NCBI GenBank assembly: GCA_022800525.1
Contig: JAAWQM010000031.1
Location: forward strand, 1 to 35,648
DNA length: 35,648 nucleotides
Direction: 5' to 3'
DNA from: Oscillospiraceae bacterium
Lineage (GTDB): Bacteria > Bacillota > Clostridia > Oscillospirales > Oscillospiraceae
In this document: positions 10,565-16,908 of the stretch, piece after piece
Numbering within the stretch: position 1 is the first letter of the stretch
Layout: each line of letters opens with the position of its first letter
The notes under the pieces: model-generated
What the model saw: only the letters and a program-made list of their open reading frames with translations
Told to the model about the DNA's origin: nothing
Databases searched by the model: none
Position numbers and translations under genes: made by a program

Positions 10565-12172
10565 TCACACCTCCCGCTTTCCCTTGCTCTGAGGCGGCAG
10601 GTACAGGCACAGGACGCTGCGGTCATCGTCGCCCTTCCGCCGCTGGTAGGCCTCGCGCAGCGTCAGGGAGGCCAGCACGTTGGGGTCCTCCCCTTGCCAG
10701 CCCGCCAGCAGGTCCTGGACCCACTGGTCGTCCCCGCTGTCGGCTACGCCGTCGCTGATCATCAGGATGAACGTGTTTTCCTCCAGGGGGAACCGGACGG
10801 CCTGGGGAGCGGCCCCGGCGTCCTGGAGTCCGGCGGGCAGGGCGGAGCCGGTAAGACGCCGCACCGCGCCGTGACGCTTGATGTAGGTGGGAGCCGCGCC
10901 GTACTTGTAGAGCGTGGCCTGCCGGGCGTTGAGGTCCGCAGCCAGGAGATCAATGGTGGTGAAGCTGCCCTGGTCGTCGCCCCGGAGGTTCAGGGCGGCG
11001 TTCAACGTTCGAAGGGCGGGCTCGGCGTCGATGCCGGCCTGCAAAAACTGCTCCAGCAGGCGCAGGGTCATCTGGCTCTCCCGCTGGGCCTCCCGGCCGC
11101 TGCCCATGCCGTCGCTAAGGATGAGATACAGCATGGAGCCTGTCCGGAACCAGGTCAGGCTGTCGCCGCACAGACGCTGGCCCTCCTTGGGCTCGGAGCC
11201 CATGGCCACCTCGTGGCACAGCTCCGCCCCGGTGGCAGCGGGGGGCTCGGTAACGGTCATGGCATGGGCTACCAGCTCGCCCAGCTGGACGTACTGTCCC
11301 CGGCTGCGTTCCCGCTCCCGGGCCAGCTGGCGGCGGTACTGCCGCCGCAGCAGGAGAGCGGTGACCTCGGTGTTGATGGCGGAGATCAGCTGGGGGAAAT
11401 GGATGCAACGGGAGGCGAAATGGACAGCGAAATCAGAGGCTTCCGCCCTGCCCCGCTCCAGCATGGCGGGGGTGGCGTCGTTGAAGGCGTTGAAGGTGGA
11501 GACGTATTCCTTGTTCCAGCACAGGTCCCGCAGGGCGCAGCCCCGGCAGACCACCTCCGCCGCCCGGTCGAAGATGACGGCGGGATTCTCCTCCTTCTGG
11601 GGCTGGGGGGCCGCGCCGAAGCTTTCGCTCAAGGCCCGCAGGGCCTGGGCGGAGAGGCGCAGGCGCTGGCGGAGGCTTTCCGCCTCCCGGGGGGCCTTCC
11701 GGCGGGGCAGGGAGGTCTCTCGCAGGATCAGGGCGCAGTAGTGGCACAGCACAGCGGATAGGGCCGTGCTGGCCGCAAGACGCAGGACGCCGGCTCCGTT
11801 CACTCCCACCTGCAGGACGTAGGCCAGTTCCACCGCCAGGGCCGCGCCTCCTGCGGCAGCGGGGCGGAACCAGGACTGCTGGGCCCATTTGGTCCCCTGA
11901 AAGGCGGCGAGCGCGGCATAGATCAGAACCAGTATCCCGCAGGCGCGCAGGGCGGGGCCGAAGGAGAGGAAGAGGAGGCATCCCGCGCACGTGCCGGTCA
12001 TGGCTGCGAGGGCGTTTTTTCCTGGTCCGCAGGCGGCAAGGAAGCCTGCGGACAGGGGGGCTCTGCCCTCCAGGCAGCAGCCGGAGGTGAAGAATCCGGC
12101 TGCTGCGTAGCCGGCGAGGCGGATGAGTTCGCCTCCGGCGGGGCGTGAGATGGTCAGTTTGGCAATCTTCAT
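10565..12172 (-). CDS. spoIIE: Stage II sporulation protein E-type serine phosphatase, short form
   Basis: A 535-residue protein. Residues about 20-155 carry several hydrophobic segments. The middle region has the cysteine cluster CRGCALRDLCW near 208-218, typical of SpoIIE. The C-terminal half is a PP2C phosphatase with LILSDGMGSGREA near 353, ISDGVADSGDD near 470 and DDRSVLCLYL near 514, all with metal-binding Asp residues. In Bacillus, SpoIIE sits at the asymmetric septum and dephosphorylates SpoIIAA to release sigma-F. That protein has about 827 residues and ten membrane segments, so this copy has a much shorter membrane region. A possible -10 (TACAAT, minus strand, 12209-12214) lies upstream, without a good -35. 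The start at 12172 opens a plausible N-terminus, but I see no perfect ribosome binding site. Confidence 0.85.
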   Translation of the reverse strand: MKIAKLTISRPAGGELIRLAGYAAAGFFTSGCCLEGRAPLSAGFLAACGPGKNALAAMTGTCAGCLLFLSFGPALRACGILVLIYAALAAFQGTKWAQQSWFRPAAAGGAALAVELAYVLQVGVNGAGVLRLAASTALSAVLCHYCALILRETSLPRRKAPREAESLRQRLRLSAQALRALSESFGAAPQPQKEENPAVIFDRAAEVVCRGCALRDLCWNKEYVSTFNAFNDATPAMLERGRAEASDFAVHFASRCIHFPQLISAINTEVTALLLRRQYRRQLARERERSRGQYVQLGELVAHAMTVTEPPAATGAELCHEVAMGSEPKEGQRLCGDSLTWFRTGSMLYLILSDGMGSGREAQRESQMTLRLLEQFLQAGIDAEPALRTLNAALNLRGDDQGSFTTIDLLAADLNARQATLYKYGAAPTYIKRHGAVRRLTGSALPAGLQDAGAAPQAVRFPLEENTFILMISDGVADSGDDQWVQDLLAGWQGEDPNVLASLTLREAYQRRKGDDDRSVLCLYLPPQSKGKREV

Positions 12173-12364
12173 GGCTTGTCCCCATTTCCTTTAGTTGGTA
12201 TTTCTGCCATTGTAGCAGGGATGCGAGGAAAAATACGTCGGGAAATAGGGGCGGCAGCCGCAAAGCATGGCGTAGGGCGGAGCGTATCTGTTTTTCCGTC
12301 AAACCGCACAAACCAGCCCCTCAAATTTTGTCAGCCTGCCAAACGGAAATTGCACAGATTTCCA

Positions 12365-12393
12365 TTGCAATCCTCCCGGAAGTCAGGTATAAT
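12365..12393 (+). promoter_or_regulatory. Promoter of the ssnA-ygfK operon
   Basis: TTGCAA, 17 bases, then a perfect TATAAT (12388-12393). The predicted start is near 12400, leaving a leader of about 143 bases. Between this promoter and the spoIIE start (12173-12364) I see only a GGGGCGGCAGCCGC stretch resembling the palindromic repeats. Confidence 0.78.
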
Positions 12394-12399
12394 GTCCTT

Positions 12400-12542
12400 A
12401 ATACAAATGAATATGGTGGTAGCTGTAACGAAGTGCTGTTGCGCACGGGCTGCAACTATCACTCAGGTCATGCTTGGGTGTTTCAAACCACACGGTTTGA
12501 AACATTTTTCTTTAGGAAGCAGCGGAAAAAGGAGGAAAAATT
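12400..12542 (+). ncRNA. Structured 5' leader of ssnA with intrinsic terminator; candidate cis-regulatory RNA
   Basis: The leader can form GTGGTAG (12416-12422) with CTATCAC (12456-12462, one G-U pair), enclosing a hairpin GTTGCGC-ACGG-GC(U)GCAAC (12438-12456). A competing pairing, CACTCA (12460-12465) with TGGGTG (12475-12480), shares bases with the first helix. These are followed by a 10-bp terminator stem and a U-rich tail, then AAAGGAGG (12528-12535) and the ATG. A folded domain followed by a terminator ahead of a metabolic gene is the layout of a transcription-controlling riboswitch or attenuator. I cannot match it to a named class: the purine riboswitch core bases are absent. All pairings were found by eye. 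Confidence 0.5.
12480..12513 (+). terminator. Intrinsic terminator in the ssnA leader
   Basis: GTTTCAAACC, loop ACAC and GGTTTGAAAC form a perfect 10-bp stem, followed by ATTTTTCTTT. It sits 30-60 bases before the ssnA ATG and downstream of the operon promoter, so it must be bypassed for the operon to be expressed. Confidence 0.75.
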
Positions 12543-13883
12543 ATGTATATTCTGGCAAACGGCAGGCTCATCACCCGCGACGGCGCAGTCCCCTGCCTAC
12601 CCGACGGCGGCGTCGCCATCGACGGCACAAAAATTGCCGCCGTGGGTTCAACGGCGGAGCTGAAAGCAAAGTACCCCGGCGCGGAATTCATTGACGCCAA
12701 GGGCGGCGTCATCATGCCCGGCCTCGTCAACGCCCACACCCACATCTATTCCGCCCTGGCCCGGGGCCTCAGTATCGAAGGCTTTCATCCCACCAATTTC
12801 TACGAGGTTCTGGACGGCCAGTGGTGGTACATCGACCGCCACCTGTCCCTCAAGGGCACCCGCGCCAGCGCCGACGCGCTGTACATAGACTGCATCAAGC
12901 AGGGCGTCACCACCATCTTTGACCACCACGCCTCCTTCGCCGAAATCCCCGGCTCCCTCTTCCAGATCGCGGACAGCGCAAAAGAATTCGGCATCCGCTC
13001 CTGCCTGTGCTACGAGGTCAGCGACCGGGACGGCGAGGAAAAAGCCAGTCAGGCCATTCAGGAAAACAAGGACTGGCTGGACTACTGCGAAAAGAACCCC
13101 AGCGACATGCTGGCGGCCATGTTCGGCGGCCACGCGCTGTTCACCATCAGCGATAAAACCTTTGAAAAGATGGCTGCGGCCAACAACGGACGTACCGGCT
13201 TCCACATTCATGTCTCCGAGGGCATGAACGATGTCTACGACAGCCTCCGGAACTACGGCCGCCGTCCCGTCCAGCGCCTGCAGGACCACGGCATCCTGGG
13301 CCCCAAGACCCTCCTGGGCCACTGCATCCACGTCAACACCGCCGAAATGGAGATCATCCAGGCCACCGGGACCATGTGCGTCAACAATCCTGAGAGCAAC
13401 ATGGGCAACGCCGTGGGCTGCTCCCCGGTCATTCAGCTCATGCAGCGGGGGATCACTGTGGGCCTGGGCACCGACGCCTATACAAACGACATGCTGGAGA
13501 GCCTGAAAGCGGCCCTGACCATCCAGCGGCACAACGCCTGCCTGCCCAACGTGGGCTGGGGCGAGGTCACCACGATGCTCTTCCAGAACAACCCCGCCAT
13601 CGGCGAAAAATACTTCGGCGTGCCTCTGGGCAGGCTGGCACCCGGTGCGGCGGCGGACGTGATCGTCATGGATTACAAGCCCTTCACGCCCTTCTCCGAT
13701 GCCAACATTGACGGCCATATGCTCTTCGGCATGACGGGCCGCCAGTGCCAGACCACCATCTGCAACGGCAAAGTCCTGATGAAGGACCGGGAGCTGGTGG
13801 GCGTGGACGAGGAGGCCGTCAACGCACACATCCTGGAGGAATCCAAAAAACTGTGGGGCGAATTGAACCACTGCGAATATTGA
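12543..13883 (+). CDS. ssnA: Putative aminohydrolase SsnA (amidohydrolase superfamily)
   Basis: A 446-residue metal-dependent amidohydrolase, close in length to E. coli SsnA (about 440). Metal ligands are visible: His65 and His67 in NAHTHIYS, a His in GFHIHVSEG, a His in LLGHCIHV and the catalytic Asp in GLGTDAYTNDM. The SsnA-type LARGLSIEGFHPTNFYEVLDGQWWYIDRHL follows the first motif. AAAGGAGG lies 7 bases upstream. The enzyme family deaminates guanine-like or chlorinated ring compounds; SsnA itself has no settled substrate but is tied to selenium-dependent purine and xanthine hydroxylase clusters. The ygfK neighbour downstream supports that role. Confidence 0.92.
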   Translation: MYILANGRLITRDGAVPCLPDGGVAIDGTKIAAVGSTAELKAKYPGAEFIDAKGGVIMPGLVNAHTHIYSALARGLSIEGFHPTNFYEVLDGQWWYIDRHLSLKGTRASADALYIDCIKQGVTTIFDHHASFAEIPGSLFQIADSAKEFGIRSCLCYEVSDRDGEEKASQAIQENKDWLDYCEKNPSDMLAAMFGGHALFTISDKTFEKMAAANNGRTGFHIHVSEGMNDVYDSLRNYGRRPVQRLQDHGILGPKTLLGHCIHVNTAEMEIIQATGTMCVNNPESNMGNAVGCSPVIQLMQRGITVGLGTDAYTNDMLESLKAALTIQRHNACLPNVGWGEVTTMLFQNNPAIGEKYFGVPLGRLAPGAAADVIVMDYKPFTPFSDANIDGHMLFGMTGRQCQTTICNGKVLMKDRELVGVDEEAVNAHILEESKKLWGELNHCEY

Positions 13884-13953: not shown

Positions 13954-16908
13954 ATGTCAGAACTGATGATCCCCATTCCCTTCAAAGAGCTGATGAACTG
14001 GATGACCGCCGAGTACGAGCGGGAGGGCGGCGTTTTCGGCGTCCACCGTCCCTACGTGGCGGGAGAAAAATCTCTGCCCATCTTTGGCGGCGAAAAAATC
14101 GAGACCCCCTTCGGTCCCGCGGCTGGCCCCAACACCCAGCTGGCCCAGAATATCATTGCCGCTTATTTCGGCGGCGCGCGGTTCTTTGAGCTGAAAACCG
14201 TCCAGAAGATGGACGGCGCGGAGCTGGCCGCCTGCATCAACCGTCCCTGCATCCTGGCTGAGGACGAGTGCTATAACTGCGAGTGGTCCACTGAGCTGTA
14301 CGTCCCCCAGGCGTATGAGGAGTACGTGAAGGCGTGGTTTGCCTGTAAGATTCTGGCGAAGGTCTGCGGCCTGGGCGACCCGGACGGCTTTGTTTTCAAC
14401 ATGTCTGTAGGCTACGACCTGGAGGGCATCAAAAGCCCCAAGATTGACAGGTATCTCAATGAGATGAAGGATGCCTCCCAGACGCCCATTTTCCAGGAGT
14501 GCAGGCGGGTCCTGAAGGAGATGTTCCCGGCGGAGCATCCGTTCATAGACACCATTGGCCCCCGGATTTCCGACAGCGTGACCCTCTCCACCCTCCACGG
14601 CTGCCCGCCGGACGAGATCGAGCGCATCGCCTCCTACCTCATTAAGGAAAAGCGCCTGCACACCTTCGTCAAATGCAACCCCACCATTCTGGGCTACCAG
14701 TCCGCCCGCTCCATTCTGGACGGCATGGGCTATGACTACATTGCCTTTGACGAGCACCACTTCAACGAGGACCTCCAGTATACCGACGCTGTTCCCATGT
14801 TCCGCCGCCTGCTGGCCCTGGCGGGAGAAAACGGCCTGGAGTTCGGCCTCAAGCTCTCCAACACCTTCCCTGTGGACGTGAAACAGAACGAGCTGCCCAG
14901 CGATGAGATGTACATGGCGGGCAAGAGCCTCTTCCCCCTGACTATCGAAATGGCCCGGCGCATCAGCAAAGAGTTCAGCGGAAAGCTGCGCCTGAGCTAT
15001 TCCGGCGGCGCGGACTACTTCAACATCGACAAGCTCTTCCAGTGCGGCATCTGGCCCATTACCATGGCGACCACTGAGCTGAAACCCGGCGGCTACCAGC
15101 GGTTCAAGCAGATCGGCGAGAGGCTGGAGAAGCTGAAATTCGAGCCGTTCACCGGCGTGGACGTGGAAAAGACGGAGGCCCTGGCTCTTGCCATCCGCAG
15201 CGACAAGTACCACGTCAAGGCCGTGAAGCCCCTGCCCCGGCGGAAGCTGTACGAAAAAGTCCCTCTGACCGACTGCTTCACCGCGCCCTGCAAGGGCGGC
15301 TGTCCCATCGGGCAGGACATCCCCGAGTACATCGAGCTTTGCCGCCAGGGCAGGTACGCCAAGGCGCTGGAGGTCATCCTGGAGAAGAACCCCCTGCCCT
15401 TTATCACCGGCACCATCTGCGCCCACCACTGCATGGACAAGTGTACCCGGAATTTCTACGACCGGTCCGTCCAGATTCGCGCCACAAAGCTGGTCGCGGC
15501 CCAGCGGGGCTATGGCCAGGCGCTGGCTTCCCTCAAGACGCCCACCCCCGTCCTGGATGGCAGGAAGGCCGCCATCATCGGCGGCGGCCCCACCGGCATG
15601 GCAGCGGCGTATTTCTGCGGCAGGGCCGGTATCCCCGTCACCATCTTCGAGAAGGAAGCCGCTCTGGGCGGCGTTGTCCGGCATGTGATCCCCAGCTTCC
15701 GGATCAGTGATGAGGCCATCGAGAAGGACGCGGCCCTCATGCGGAAAATGGGCGTGGAAGTGAAGCTGAACACCCCCGCTCCCTCTGTAGACGAGCTGAA
15801 AGCCCAGGGCTACACCCATATTTTCTTCGCCATCGGCGCGTGGAAGCCCGGGAAACTGGACATCCCCGGAAACGTCAAGCCTGTCATCGCCTGGATGCGG
15901 GACGTGAAGTCCGGCAGGACGGAGACGCTGGGCCATGTGGCTGTTGTGGGCGGCGGCAACACCGCCATGGACGCCGCGCGTCTGGCTCTCCGGGCTGGGG
16001 CGGAGAGCAGCACCCTGGTCTACCGCCGCACGAAGAAGTACATGCCCGCTGACGCGGAGGAACTGGAGCTGGCCATCGCGGACGGCGTGCAGTTCCTGGA
16101 GCTGGTGTCCCCCGTGGAGCAGAAGGGCGGAAAGCTCCTCTGTAAGAAAATGCGTCTGGGCGAGCCGGACGCCAGCGGACGCCGCTCCCCCGTGGAGACG
16201 GACGAGACCGTGGAAATCCCCTGCGATACCGTGATTTCCGCCGTAGGCGAGCGGGTGGACAGCGAATTCCTGACCGCCTGCGGTGTGGAGACCGGCAGGA
16301 AGGGCTGTCCGGACTTCAAAACCAACCTGGAGAACGTCTATGCGGGCGGCGACGCGTTCCGCGGTCCCGCCACGGTGGTGGAAGGCATTGCCGACGCCGC
16401 GGCCTTTGCCGAAGCGGTCATTGGCGCAAAGCATGAGGCCAGCATCCCCTGCCACGCCCGCGCCAGCCGTGAGGCCGCCATCGACAGAAAAGGCGTCCTC
16501 TGCGAGTCCGCCAAGTGCGAGGGCGACCGCTGCCTGAGCTGCAATGTGGTGTGCCAGACCTGCGCCGACGTGTGCCCCAACCGGGCCAACGTGGTGGTGA
16601 AGCTGCCGGACGGACGGGCGCAGATCCTGCACATGGACCGCATGTGCAACGAGTGCGGCAACTGCCGGGCGTTCTGTCCCTACGACAGCGCGCCTTACAA
16701 GGATAAATTCACGCTGTTCTATGACCGGGCGGGCTTTGAGGAAAGCCCGGACAACCAGGGCTTCCTGCCTCTGAGCGGCAGTAAGGTCCTGCTGCGGCTG
16801 AACGGCAGAGTGGAGGAGATCGATCTGGACGAGACCAACGATCTGCCCGCTGATATTGAAATCCTGATCTACACTGTACTGACCCGCTACCGCTATCTGC
16901 TCGGGTAA
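13954..16908 (+). CDS. ygfK: YgfK-type flavin/iron-sulfur oxidoreductase (putative selenate reductase subunit)
   Basis: A 984-residue protein; E. coli YgfK has 1032. The first 420 residues resemble a dihydroorotate-dehydrogenase-like barrel (ETPFGPAAGPNTQ near 50). Next come a cysteine motif CKGGCPIGQDIPEYIELC (near 446) and a glutamate-synthase-small-subunit-like core, with FAD site IIGGGPTGMAAAY (near 541) and NAD(P)H site VVGGGNTAMDAARLAL (near 664). Two C-terminal cysteine clusters follow, CLSCNVVCQTCADVCPN (near 861) and CNECGNCRAFCPY (near 897), fitting two 4Fe-4S clusters. The family is thought to pass electrons to or from selenium/molybdenum hydroxylases of purine breakdown; the name selenate reductase is historical. 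No hydroxylase subunit lies nearby, so its partner must be elsewhere. It forms an operon with ssnA. Confidence 0.92.
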   Translation: MSELMIPIPFKELMNWMTAEYEREGGVFGVHRPYVAGEKSLPIFGGEKIETPFGPAAGPNTQLAQNIIAAYFGGARFFELKTVQKMDGAELAACINRPCILAEDECYNCEWSTELYVPQAYEEYVKAWFACKILAKVCGLGDPDGFVFNMSVGYDLEGIKSPKIDRYLNEMKDASQTPIFQECRRVLKEMFPAEHPFIDTIGPRISDSVTLSTLHGCPPDEIERIASYLIKEKRLHTFVKCNPTILGYQSARSILDGMGYDYIAFDEHHFNEDLQYTDAVPMFRRLLALAGENGLEFGLKLSNTFPVDVKQNELPSDEMYMAGKSLFPLTIEMARRISKEFSGKLRLSYSGGADYFNIDKLFQCGIWPITMATTELKPGGYQRFKQIGERLEKLKFEPFTGVDVEKTEALALAIRSDKYHVKAVKPLPRRKLYEKVPLTDCFTAPCKGGCPIGQDIPEYIELCRQGRYAKALEVILEKNPLPFITGTICAHHCMDKCTRNFYDRSVQIRATKLVAAQRGYGQALASLKTPTPVLDGRKAAIIGGGPTGMAAAYFCGRAGIPVTIFEKEAALGGVVRHVIPSFRISDEAIEKDAALMRKMGVEVKLNTPAPSVDELKAQGYTHIFFAIGAWKPGKLDIPGNVKPVIAWMRDVKSGRTETLGHVAVVGGGNTAMDAARLALRAGAESSTLVYRRTKKYMPADAEELELAIADGVQFLELVSPVEQKGGKLLCKKMRLGEPDASGRRSPVETDETVEIPCDTVISAVGERVDSEFLTACGVETGRKGCPDFKTNLENVYAGGDAFRGPATVVEGIADAAAFAEAVIGAKHEASIPCHARASREAAIDRKGVLCESAKCEGDRCLSCNVVCQTCADVCPNRANVVVKLPDGRAQILHMDRMCNECGNCRAFCPYDSAPYKDKFTLFYDRAGFEESPDNQGFLPLSGSKVLLRLNGRVEEIDLDETNDLPADIEILIYTVLTRYRYLLG

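Follow-up and report, generated by a model that had tools for sequence, protein, structure and literature searches.

A transcription terminator lies between the promoter and the first gene of the ssnA-ygfK operon of an Oscillospiraceae bacterium, and the question this locus raises is what lets RNA polymerase through to the genes. The stretch of DNA analysed, hereafter the window, spans 35,648 nucleotides. The sequence-only reading of it had described a promoter, some 143 untranslated nucleotides, a terminator, a ribosome binding site and the two genes, and all of these were found:

12365-12393, plus strand: promoter TTGCAA-17-TATAAT, sigma-70-like, with the -35 element at 12365-12370 and the -10 element at 12388-12393
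12476-12507, plus strand: intrinsic terminator (T), core 12480-12489 paired with 12494-12503, up to 14 bp, U-rich tail to 12513
12531-12535, plus strand: ribosome binding site GGAGG, from sequence reading
12543-13883, plus strand: ssnA, aminohydrolase, ATG at 12543, TIGR03314 match
13954-16908, plus strand: ygfK, flavin/Fe-S reductase, TIGR03315 match

The promoter matches at 10 of 12 positions (shuffles of the region yield 0.4 on average), and relatives are enriched in a -10 element at the corresponding position. In 51/159 of their leaders, an exact TATAAT stands 12-50 nt 5' of the RNA core described below, against 5.7 expected from shuffles; with no more than one mismatch it occurs in 109 leaders, in 59 of which it begins 29 nt 5' of the core. 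With the start point taken from this promoter, the untranslated leader measures about 143 nt, and its fold of -41.8 kcal/mol (z -3.06) was equalled in stability by 1 of 200 shuffles. The terminator does have its 10-bp stem, which lengthens to 12-14 bp. The gene names hold as well, the SsnA protein reaching 550 bits (cut-off 455.5) and YgfK 1300 bits (cut-off 835.3). Divergent from the leader lies a gene for a protein with a SpoIIE-like C-terminal part (window 10565-12172, minus strand), which scores 214.6 bits against TIGR02865, under the cut-off of 490.8.

The leader had been left without a named class and was put forward as a candidate new riboswitch or attenuator. A scan of the window with Rfam covariance models supplies the name: the cis-regulatory family RF03031, ssnA RNA, is the only match at the gathering threshold, scoring 58.8 bits where 37.3 are needed. 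The match covers the full model (1-48) and sits within the 5' leader of ssnA, as the position of the family requires. Its parts are as follows:

12413-12461, plus strand: ssnA RNA (RF03031), aptamer core and flanks
12420-12424, plus strand: P1 5' strand, paired with 12448-12452
12425-12432, plus strand: GUAACGAA, the conserved internal-loop side of 8 nt that faces G12447
12433-12446, plus strand: P2 hairpin, 12433-12436 paired with 12443-12446, loop UGUUGC at 12437-12442
12448-12452, plus strand: P1 3' strand, paired with 12420-12424

The architecture of the family, with a P1 of 5 bp, an 8/1 internal loop and a P2 of 4 bp, is present throughout. The window leader is the same in kind as RF03031; it has a 6-nt P2 loop (GUGC-UGUUGC-GCAC), whereas 5 nt are commoner in the family, and it carries an expression platform of the type composed of helices P0, M and T. 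We conclude with near certainty that it belongs to the ssnA RNA family, of which, the family being already catalogued, it is one further member. The epithet "new" is lost in this way, and so is a hairpin with an ACGG loop: these letters (12445-12448) complete P2 on its 3' side, supply the unpaired G that is conserved and begin the 3' strand of P1, and UGUUGC is the loop that the family model places at the apex. An attenuator driven by ribosomes on a leader peptide is unlikely, given that the ATGs of the leader (12407 and 12413) share a frame open to 12694. What survives of the original proposal is a structured leader with a terminator.

Conservation of the core was judged on 45 rows, namely 44 found by the model plus the diverged locus L222, because loci collected by an exact pattern (at least 118) would bias any estimate of invariance. 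In these rows, P1 and P2 are paired in 97.3% of cells, compared with 21-55% for slid strands, and G, AA and A of the internal loop are invariant together with the single G opposite. Two-sided changes affect three of nine pairs and 10 cells; shuffles average 2.9, and 114 of 500 also reach three such pairs. The case for P1 and P2 thus appears to come mainly from conservation, with modest covariation. In L222 (2423-2451, minus strand), an ssnA RNA upstream of ssnA has diverged to below gathering and has three inner P1 pairs changed with pairing kept; the family may accordingly extend beyond the Rfam model. At another locus, L044, an aptamer half-copy, GGCTGCAAGGAAGTGCTATGCGC, begins about 45 nt 5' of the core at 1510, perhaps as a decayed tandem aptamer. 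A 6S RNA gene stands immediately 5' of ssnA RNA, on the same strand, in 2 of 11 scanned loci:

L131, 1992-2190, plus strand: 6S RNA gene upstream of ssnA RNA
L192, 1655-1851, minus strand: 6S RNA gene upstream of ssnA RNA

The genome of the window has one RF03031 match. Across its family, matches at E<=0.001 occur in 78 of 300 genomes and matches above gathering in 71. Searches of the order (8/245 genomes), class (6/391) and phylum (4/398) returned few matches: those in the order all come from the same genome or family, the class has nothing above gathering except the window's own genome, and the two above gathering in the phylum are this genome and G1253. An exact-pattern scan of named genomes gave at least 118 stretches; the 80 matches listed come from Oscillospiraceae, Ruminococcaceae or unclassified Clostridia, with genera such as Flavonifractor, Oscillibacter, Intestinimonas and Gemmiger among them. 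A fuzzy core search of 204 loci produced 196 matches, representing 160 distinct instances. It found no core in eight loci of 23-26 bits, below gathering (L039-L043 from the class, L045 and L046 from the phylum, L203 from the family), which were dropped; a family-search match of 24.3 bits in G221 was left out of the locus set.

The association with ssnA is tight. For 70 of the 72 above-gathering motifs in the 300 family genomes, SsnA follows on the motif's strand within 600 nt (as a partial row in two cases), and so the leader is conserved in close relatives, where a lack of conservation had been set as a refutation. The remaining two are in G214, which has a partial SsnA on another contig, and G287:C126. 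Seen from the gene side, a motif at E<=0.001 accompanies 72 of the 90 SsnA genes and is missing from 18. Counted by genome, a motif above gathering and SsnA above cut-off occur together in 68 and neither occurs in 208; SsnA stands alone in 21 and the motif in three, each with a partial SsnA row. Upstream regions were examined for 17 of the 18 motif-less genes, and one has a diverged motif, that of L222; G095 was left out, since its SsnA begins close to the end of a contig and its genome carries a weak motif at the end of a contig elsewhere.

In the 160 instances, which were gathered by motif and not by gene, SsnA follows within 700 nt in 150. Six of the other ten have at most 250 nt of sequence, and four, all above gathering, precede other genes: a hydantoinase in L062 (TIGR02033, 552 bits), a PyrK-like subunit followed by GltA in L084, and a YczE-like DUF6198 membrane protein in two loci (its family checked on L145):

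L124, 1741-1788, minus strand: ssnA RNA ahead of a YczE-like DUF6198 gene
L145, 2846-2893, plus strand: ssnA RNA ahead of a YczE-like DUF6198 gene

A protein similar to the latter comes after ygfK in L089, and our guess is that it is possibly a transporter of the pathway. L062 and L089 share one MAG bin, with motif copies ahead of hydantoinase and ssnA; L084 and L097 share another, with copies ahead of the PyrK-like gene and ssnA. YgfK comes next in 67 loci, many loci ending short of that position. More than 500 nt follow YgfK in 24 loci, 13 of which carry another same-strand ORF (hydantoinase five, xanthine dehydrogenase (XDH)-like three, YgeX-like one, YgeY-like one, no assignment three). 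Two hydantoinases, two Se-dependent XDHs and one YgeY were confirmed; the YgeX fragment, at 213 bits, is under the cut-off. To judge from these family assignments, genes for part of the reductive uric acid route lie in the operons, namely those of SsnA, YgfK, hydantoinase, Se-dependent XDH, YgeX and YgeY.

As for the terminator, a hairpin and U tract precede the gene in 148 of 158 leaders, and the leader very probably controls transcription termination. Two platform designs can be told apart. The 69 leaders outside the window type include 43 with a U tract no more than 61 nt from the core. In 24 of these short leaders, the 5' strand of the terminator recruits at least three core bases, and 21 of the 24 overlapping hairpins outdo shuffled spacers at p<=0.05 (irregular ones, in L084 and L198, are among them); 22 of the 43 show no overlap at this level. 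In L116, for example, the terminator pairs the aptamer stretch GCGCACGGGC with GCCCGUGCGC. L037, L160 and L192 are further cases seen by eye, missed by the script because the stem ends short of the U tract, and a Flavonifractor-type group has its terminator distant from the core. An earlier test of complementarity between the 3' end of the core and the 3' strand of the terminator was weak, with 9/58 at p<=0.05 (3/90 in leaders of the window type); a short stretch of the core went into it, and the shuffled-spacer test took its place. Since aptamer and terminator share bases in these overlapping leaders, the two cannot coexist there, and a factor that holds the aptamer would let polymerase through.

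The window-type design was studied in 90 leaders, clustered to 73 alignment rows; the sorting rule leaves all other leaders without the CUAUC strand of P0. Two further helices define it:

12415-12463, plus strand: P0, 12415-12422 paired with 12456-12463, 8 bp, sharing 12420-12422 with P1 and 12460-12463 with M
12460-12480, plus strand: M, proposed antiterminator, 12460-12467 paired with 12473-12480, 8 bp; 12476-12480 also belong to the longest form of T

The four helices P1, P0, M and T form a chain of successive overlaps that is retained in relatives: UAG is common to P0 and P1, the P0 3' strand overlaps the M 5' strand, and the M 3' strand is the foot of T. The competing helices of the sequence-only reading are therefore there, as P0 against M with 12460-12463 in common, and its picture stands: a structured leader, conserved as it turns out, whose helices exclude one another and which serves a purine-catabolic operon. 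Paired cells amount to 90.0% for P0, 84.1% for M and 90.5% for T. Covariation, which that reading had proposed to look for, is clear in T (two-sided changes at 11 of 12 pairs, 67 cells versus 16-44 in slid controls) and, as stated above, modest in P1/P2; P0 and M do no better than slid controls, with 16 cells versus 30 (+3) and 33 cells versus 38 (-1) and 41 (-2), respectively. Covariation of P0 and M is weak, and they stand out from slid controls solely by their paired share. Pair columns 7/54 of P0 are unpaired in 47 of 73 rows, and one sub-group pairs M in a different register.

In 84 window-type leaders (those with terminator-core overlap or a U tract more than 75 nt away being excluded), enforcing the aptamer raised the median P(M) from 0.01 to 0.23, with shifts above 0.1 upwards in 45 leaders and downwards in one, and lowered P(T) from 0.96 to 0.68, with a fall in 44 leaders and a rise in one. 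Coupling was calculated for 77 of the 90 leaders, after exclusion of terminator-core overlap or P(T) <0.05. Its median was 1.09 kcal/mol, compared with 0.20 for 462 chimeras (p 6e-6, the chimeras not being independent); values >0.5 kcal/mol were reached by 47/77 natives and 190/462 chimeras, and values < -0.5 kcal/mol by 4/77 and 83/462. Given the chimera counts, part of this signal is unspecific. When both types are taken together (148 leaders), aptamer and terminator are exclusive in 30, anti-cooperative (>0.5 kcal/mol) in 57, neutral in 39 and cooperative in 22, some leaders of the last two groups having doubtful terminator calls. For the window leader itself, P(T) drops from 0.93 to 0.76 (0.98 to 0.87 by a second measure) and P(M) rises from 0.01 to 0.14, the 10-bp terminator core persisting alongside M; here, energy alone would favour a switch weakly.

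The terminator is predicted in nearly all molecules of the window leader, aptamer or not, as would be expected of a constitutive weak terminator next to an incidental conserved hairpin, with no regulation at all. We consider this highly improbable, since the core is conserved although platforms change and since relatives retain the mutually exclusive helices. A conserved aptamer thus appears to be coupled to an expression platform, as expected of a riboswitch, with coupling predicted to be weak in the window leader, and we infer that a small molecule binds the RNA and would let polymerase through in doing so.

The scenario we propose is that the orphan ssnA RNA would act in cis on ssnA-ygfK by controlled termination. 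With no ligand, P0 (12415-12422/12456-12463) would form and occupy the M strand, and T would halt RNA polymerase. A ligand would hold the aptamer together, that is, P1, P2 and the internal loop of GUAACGAA and G; P1 would capture 12420-12422 from P0 and release the M strand, and M would pair with the foot of T, so that the operon is read. In both designs, formation of the aptamer goes with loss or weakening of the terminator, which makes an ON switch probable. The opposite sign, in which the ligand-bound aptamer retains the outer part of P0, blocks M and favours termination, draws on the possible partial coexistence of P1 with the outer P0 pairs and on the 22 cooperative leaders of 148. It seems unlikely to us: the CUAUC strand of P0 is missing from leaders outside the window type, 21 of which share bases between terminator and aptamer, T falls far more often than it rises when the aptamer is enforced in window-type leaders, and a catabolic operon reported elsewhere as induced by uric acid suits an ON switch better.

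A protein, rather than a small molecule, might bind the conserved hairpin and antiterminate in the manner of LicT/BglG proteins on RAT hairpins. RAT antiterminators likewise have a short hairpin with an asymmetric internal loop that adjoins and competes with a terminator but, unlike the mechanism proposed for ssnA RNA, are bound by protein. The CAT_RBD domain of the LicT/BglG family has one copy in the window genome and is commoner in genomes with above-gathering motifs (15/71) than in others (11/229; joined by eye), but 56 of the 71 motif genomes, some of them incomplete, have no match, and we rejected this family as a general partner. In 38 of 153 motif loci, ssnA has as divergent neighbour a gene for a YheO-like PAS/HTH regulator, but this applies to 37 of 67 loci of other types and just 1 of 86 of the window type, and the regulator's HTH_22 domain suggests DNA binding. 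Judged from these two protein families, control by a protein looks improbable. Relatives of the regulator occur in that divergent position in 9 of 17 motif-less loci as against the 38 of 153, and protein and RNA control may partly substitute for one another. In the window genome, a YheO-like PAS_6/HTH_22 regulator (contig C61; L211:7565-8224, minus strand) lies divergent from ygeY-ygeW-carbamate kinase.

Returning to a small molecule that opens the switch, we may ask which one it could be. According to a report that assigned a pathway to the SsnA/YgfK enzymes only in 2025, XDH of the reductive uric acid pathway makes 2,8-dioxopurine (yanthine), which is reduced and ring-opened by YgfK with SsnA, and hydantoinase and the Yge enzymes complete the route (PMC12507026). 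Induction by uric acid has been reported in gut bacteria for ssnA, ygfK, ygeX, ygeY and ygeW (PMC12990295). The window genome encodes most of this gene set, as far as profile matches tell: Se-dependent XDH (1306 bits), hydantoinase (540 bits), YgeW (770 bits), YgeY, carbamate kinase and four Xan_ur_permease proteins. A search of it for YgeX (TIGR03528) gave nothing above the cut-off; a diverged PALP-like enzyme, under the Pfam cut-off, adjoins the ygeY-ygeW operon. Because the commonest targets of the motif are enzymes acting together on yanthine, it is tempting to see uric acid or yanthine as the natural inducer, and one of these is our leading guess for the putative ligand, though it falls just short of probable.

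A general purine, a signal of the selenium or molybdenum cofactor, or a late product of the pathway is conceivable instead, if less so. The family names of SsnA and YgfK refer to selenium metabolism, and XDH in some operons is of the Se-dependent type. Yet the motif-gathered instances precede ssnA in all but ten cases, four of these preceding hydantoinase, PyrK-like or YczE-like genes and six being too short, and a selenium or cofactor signal is less likely since no cofactor gene is found among the first genes behind the motif.

The ssnA motif was reportedly named in a 2017 survey, which may already describe part of the platform logic. Like ssnA RNA, NMT1, the xanthine riboswitch, was an orphan of that survey, and both are tied to oxidised purines. 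The two cores differ, and the NMT1 covariance model gave no match in 12350-12580 up to E=10, so membership of the leader in that class was rejected. The NMT1 motif binds xanthine and uric acid (PMC7373994; PMC8266621), occurs in Proteobacteria and is an OFF switch that probably works via translation (PMC7373994).

A search of one literature collection for a ligand or mechanism of ssnA RNA returned no report. Taken as a whole, our explanation, an ssnA RNA that controls termination as an ON switch for a purine of the uric acid pathway, is one we hold to be somewhat favoured. A bolder and rather doubtful possibility is that ssnA RNA would be the first riboswitch class to antiterminate as an ON switch for uric acid or, in a more daring version, for yanthine. 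With two concrete ligands and a predicted ON sign, this orphan RNA is open to direct test. If urate or yanthine were bound, this could explain how urate breakdown is induced in Oscillospiraceae and would offer a ready urate sensor; ssnA RNA would then be the means by which these gut bacteria sense the urate of their host.
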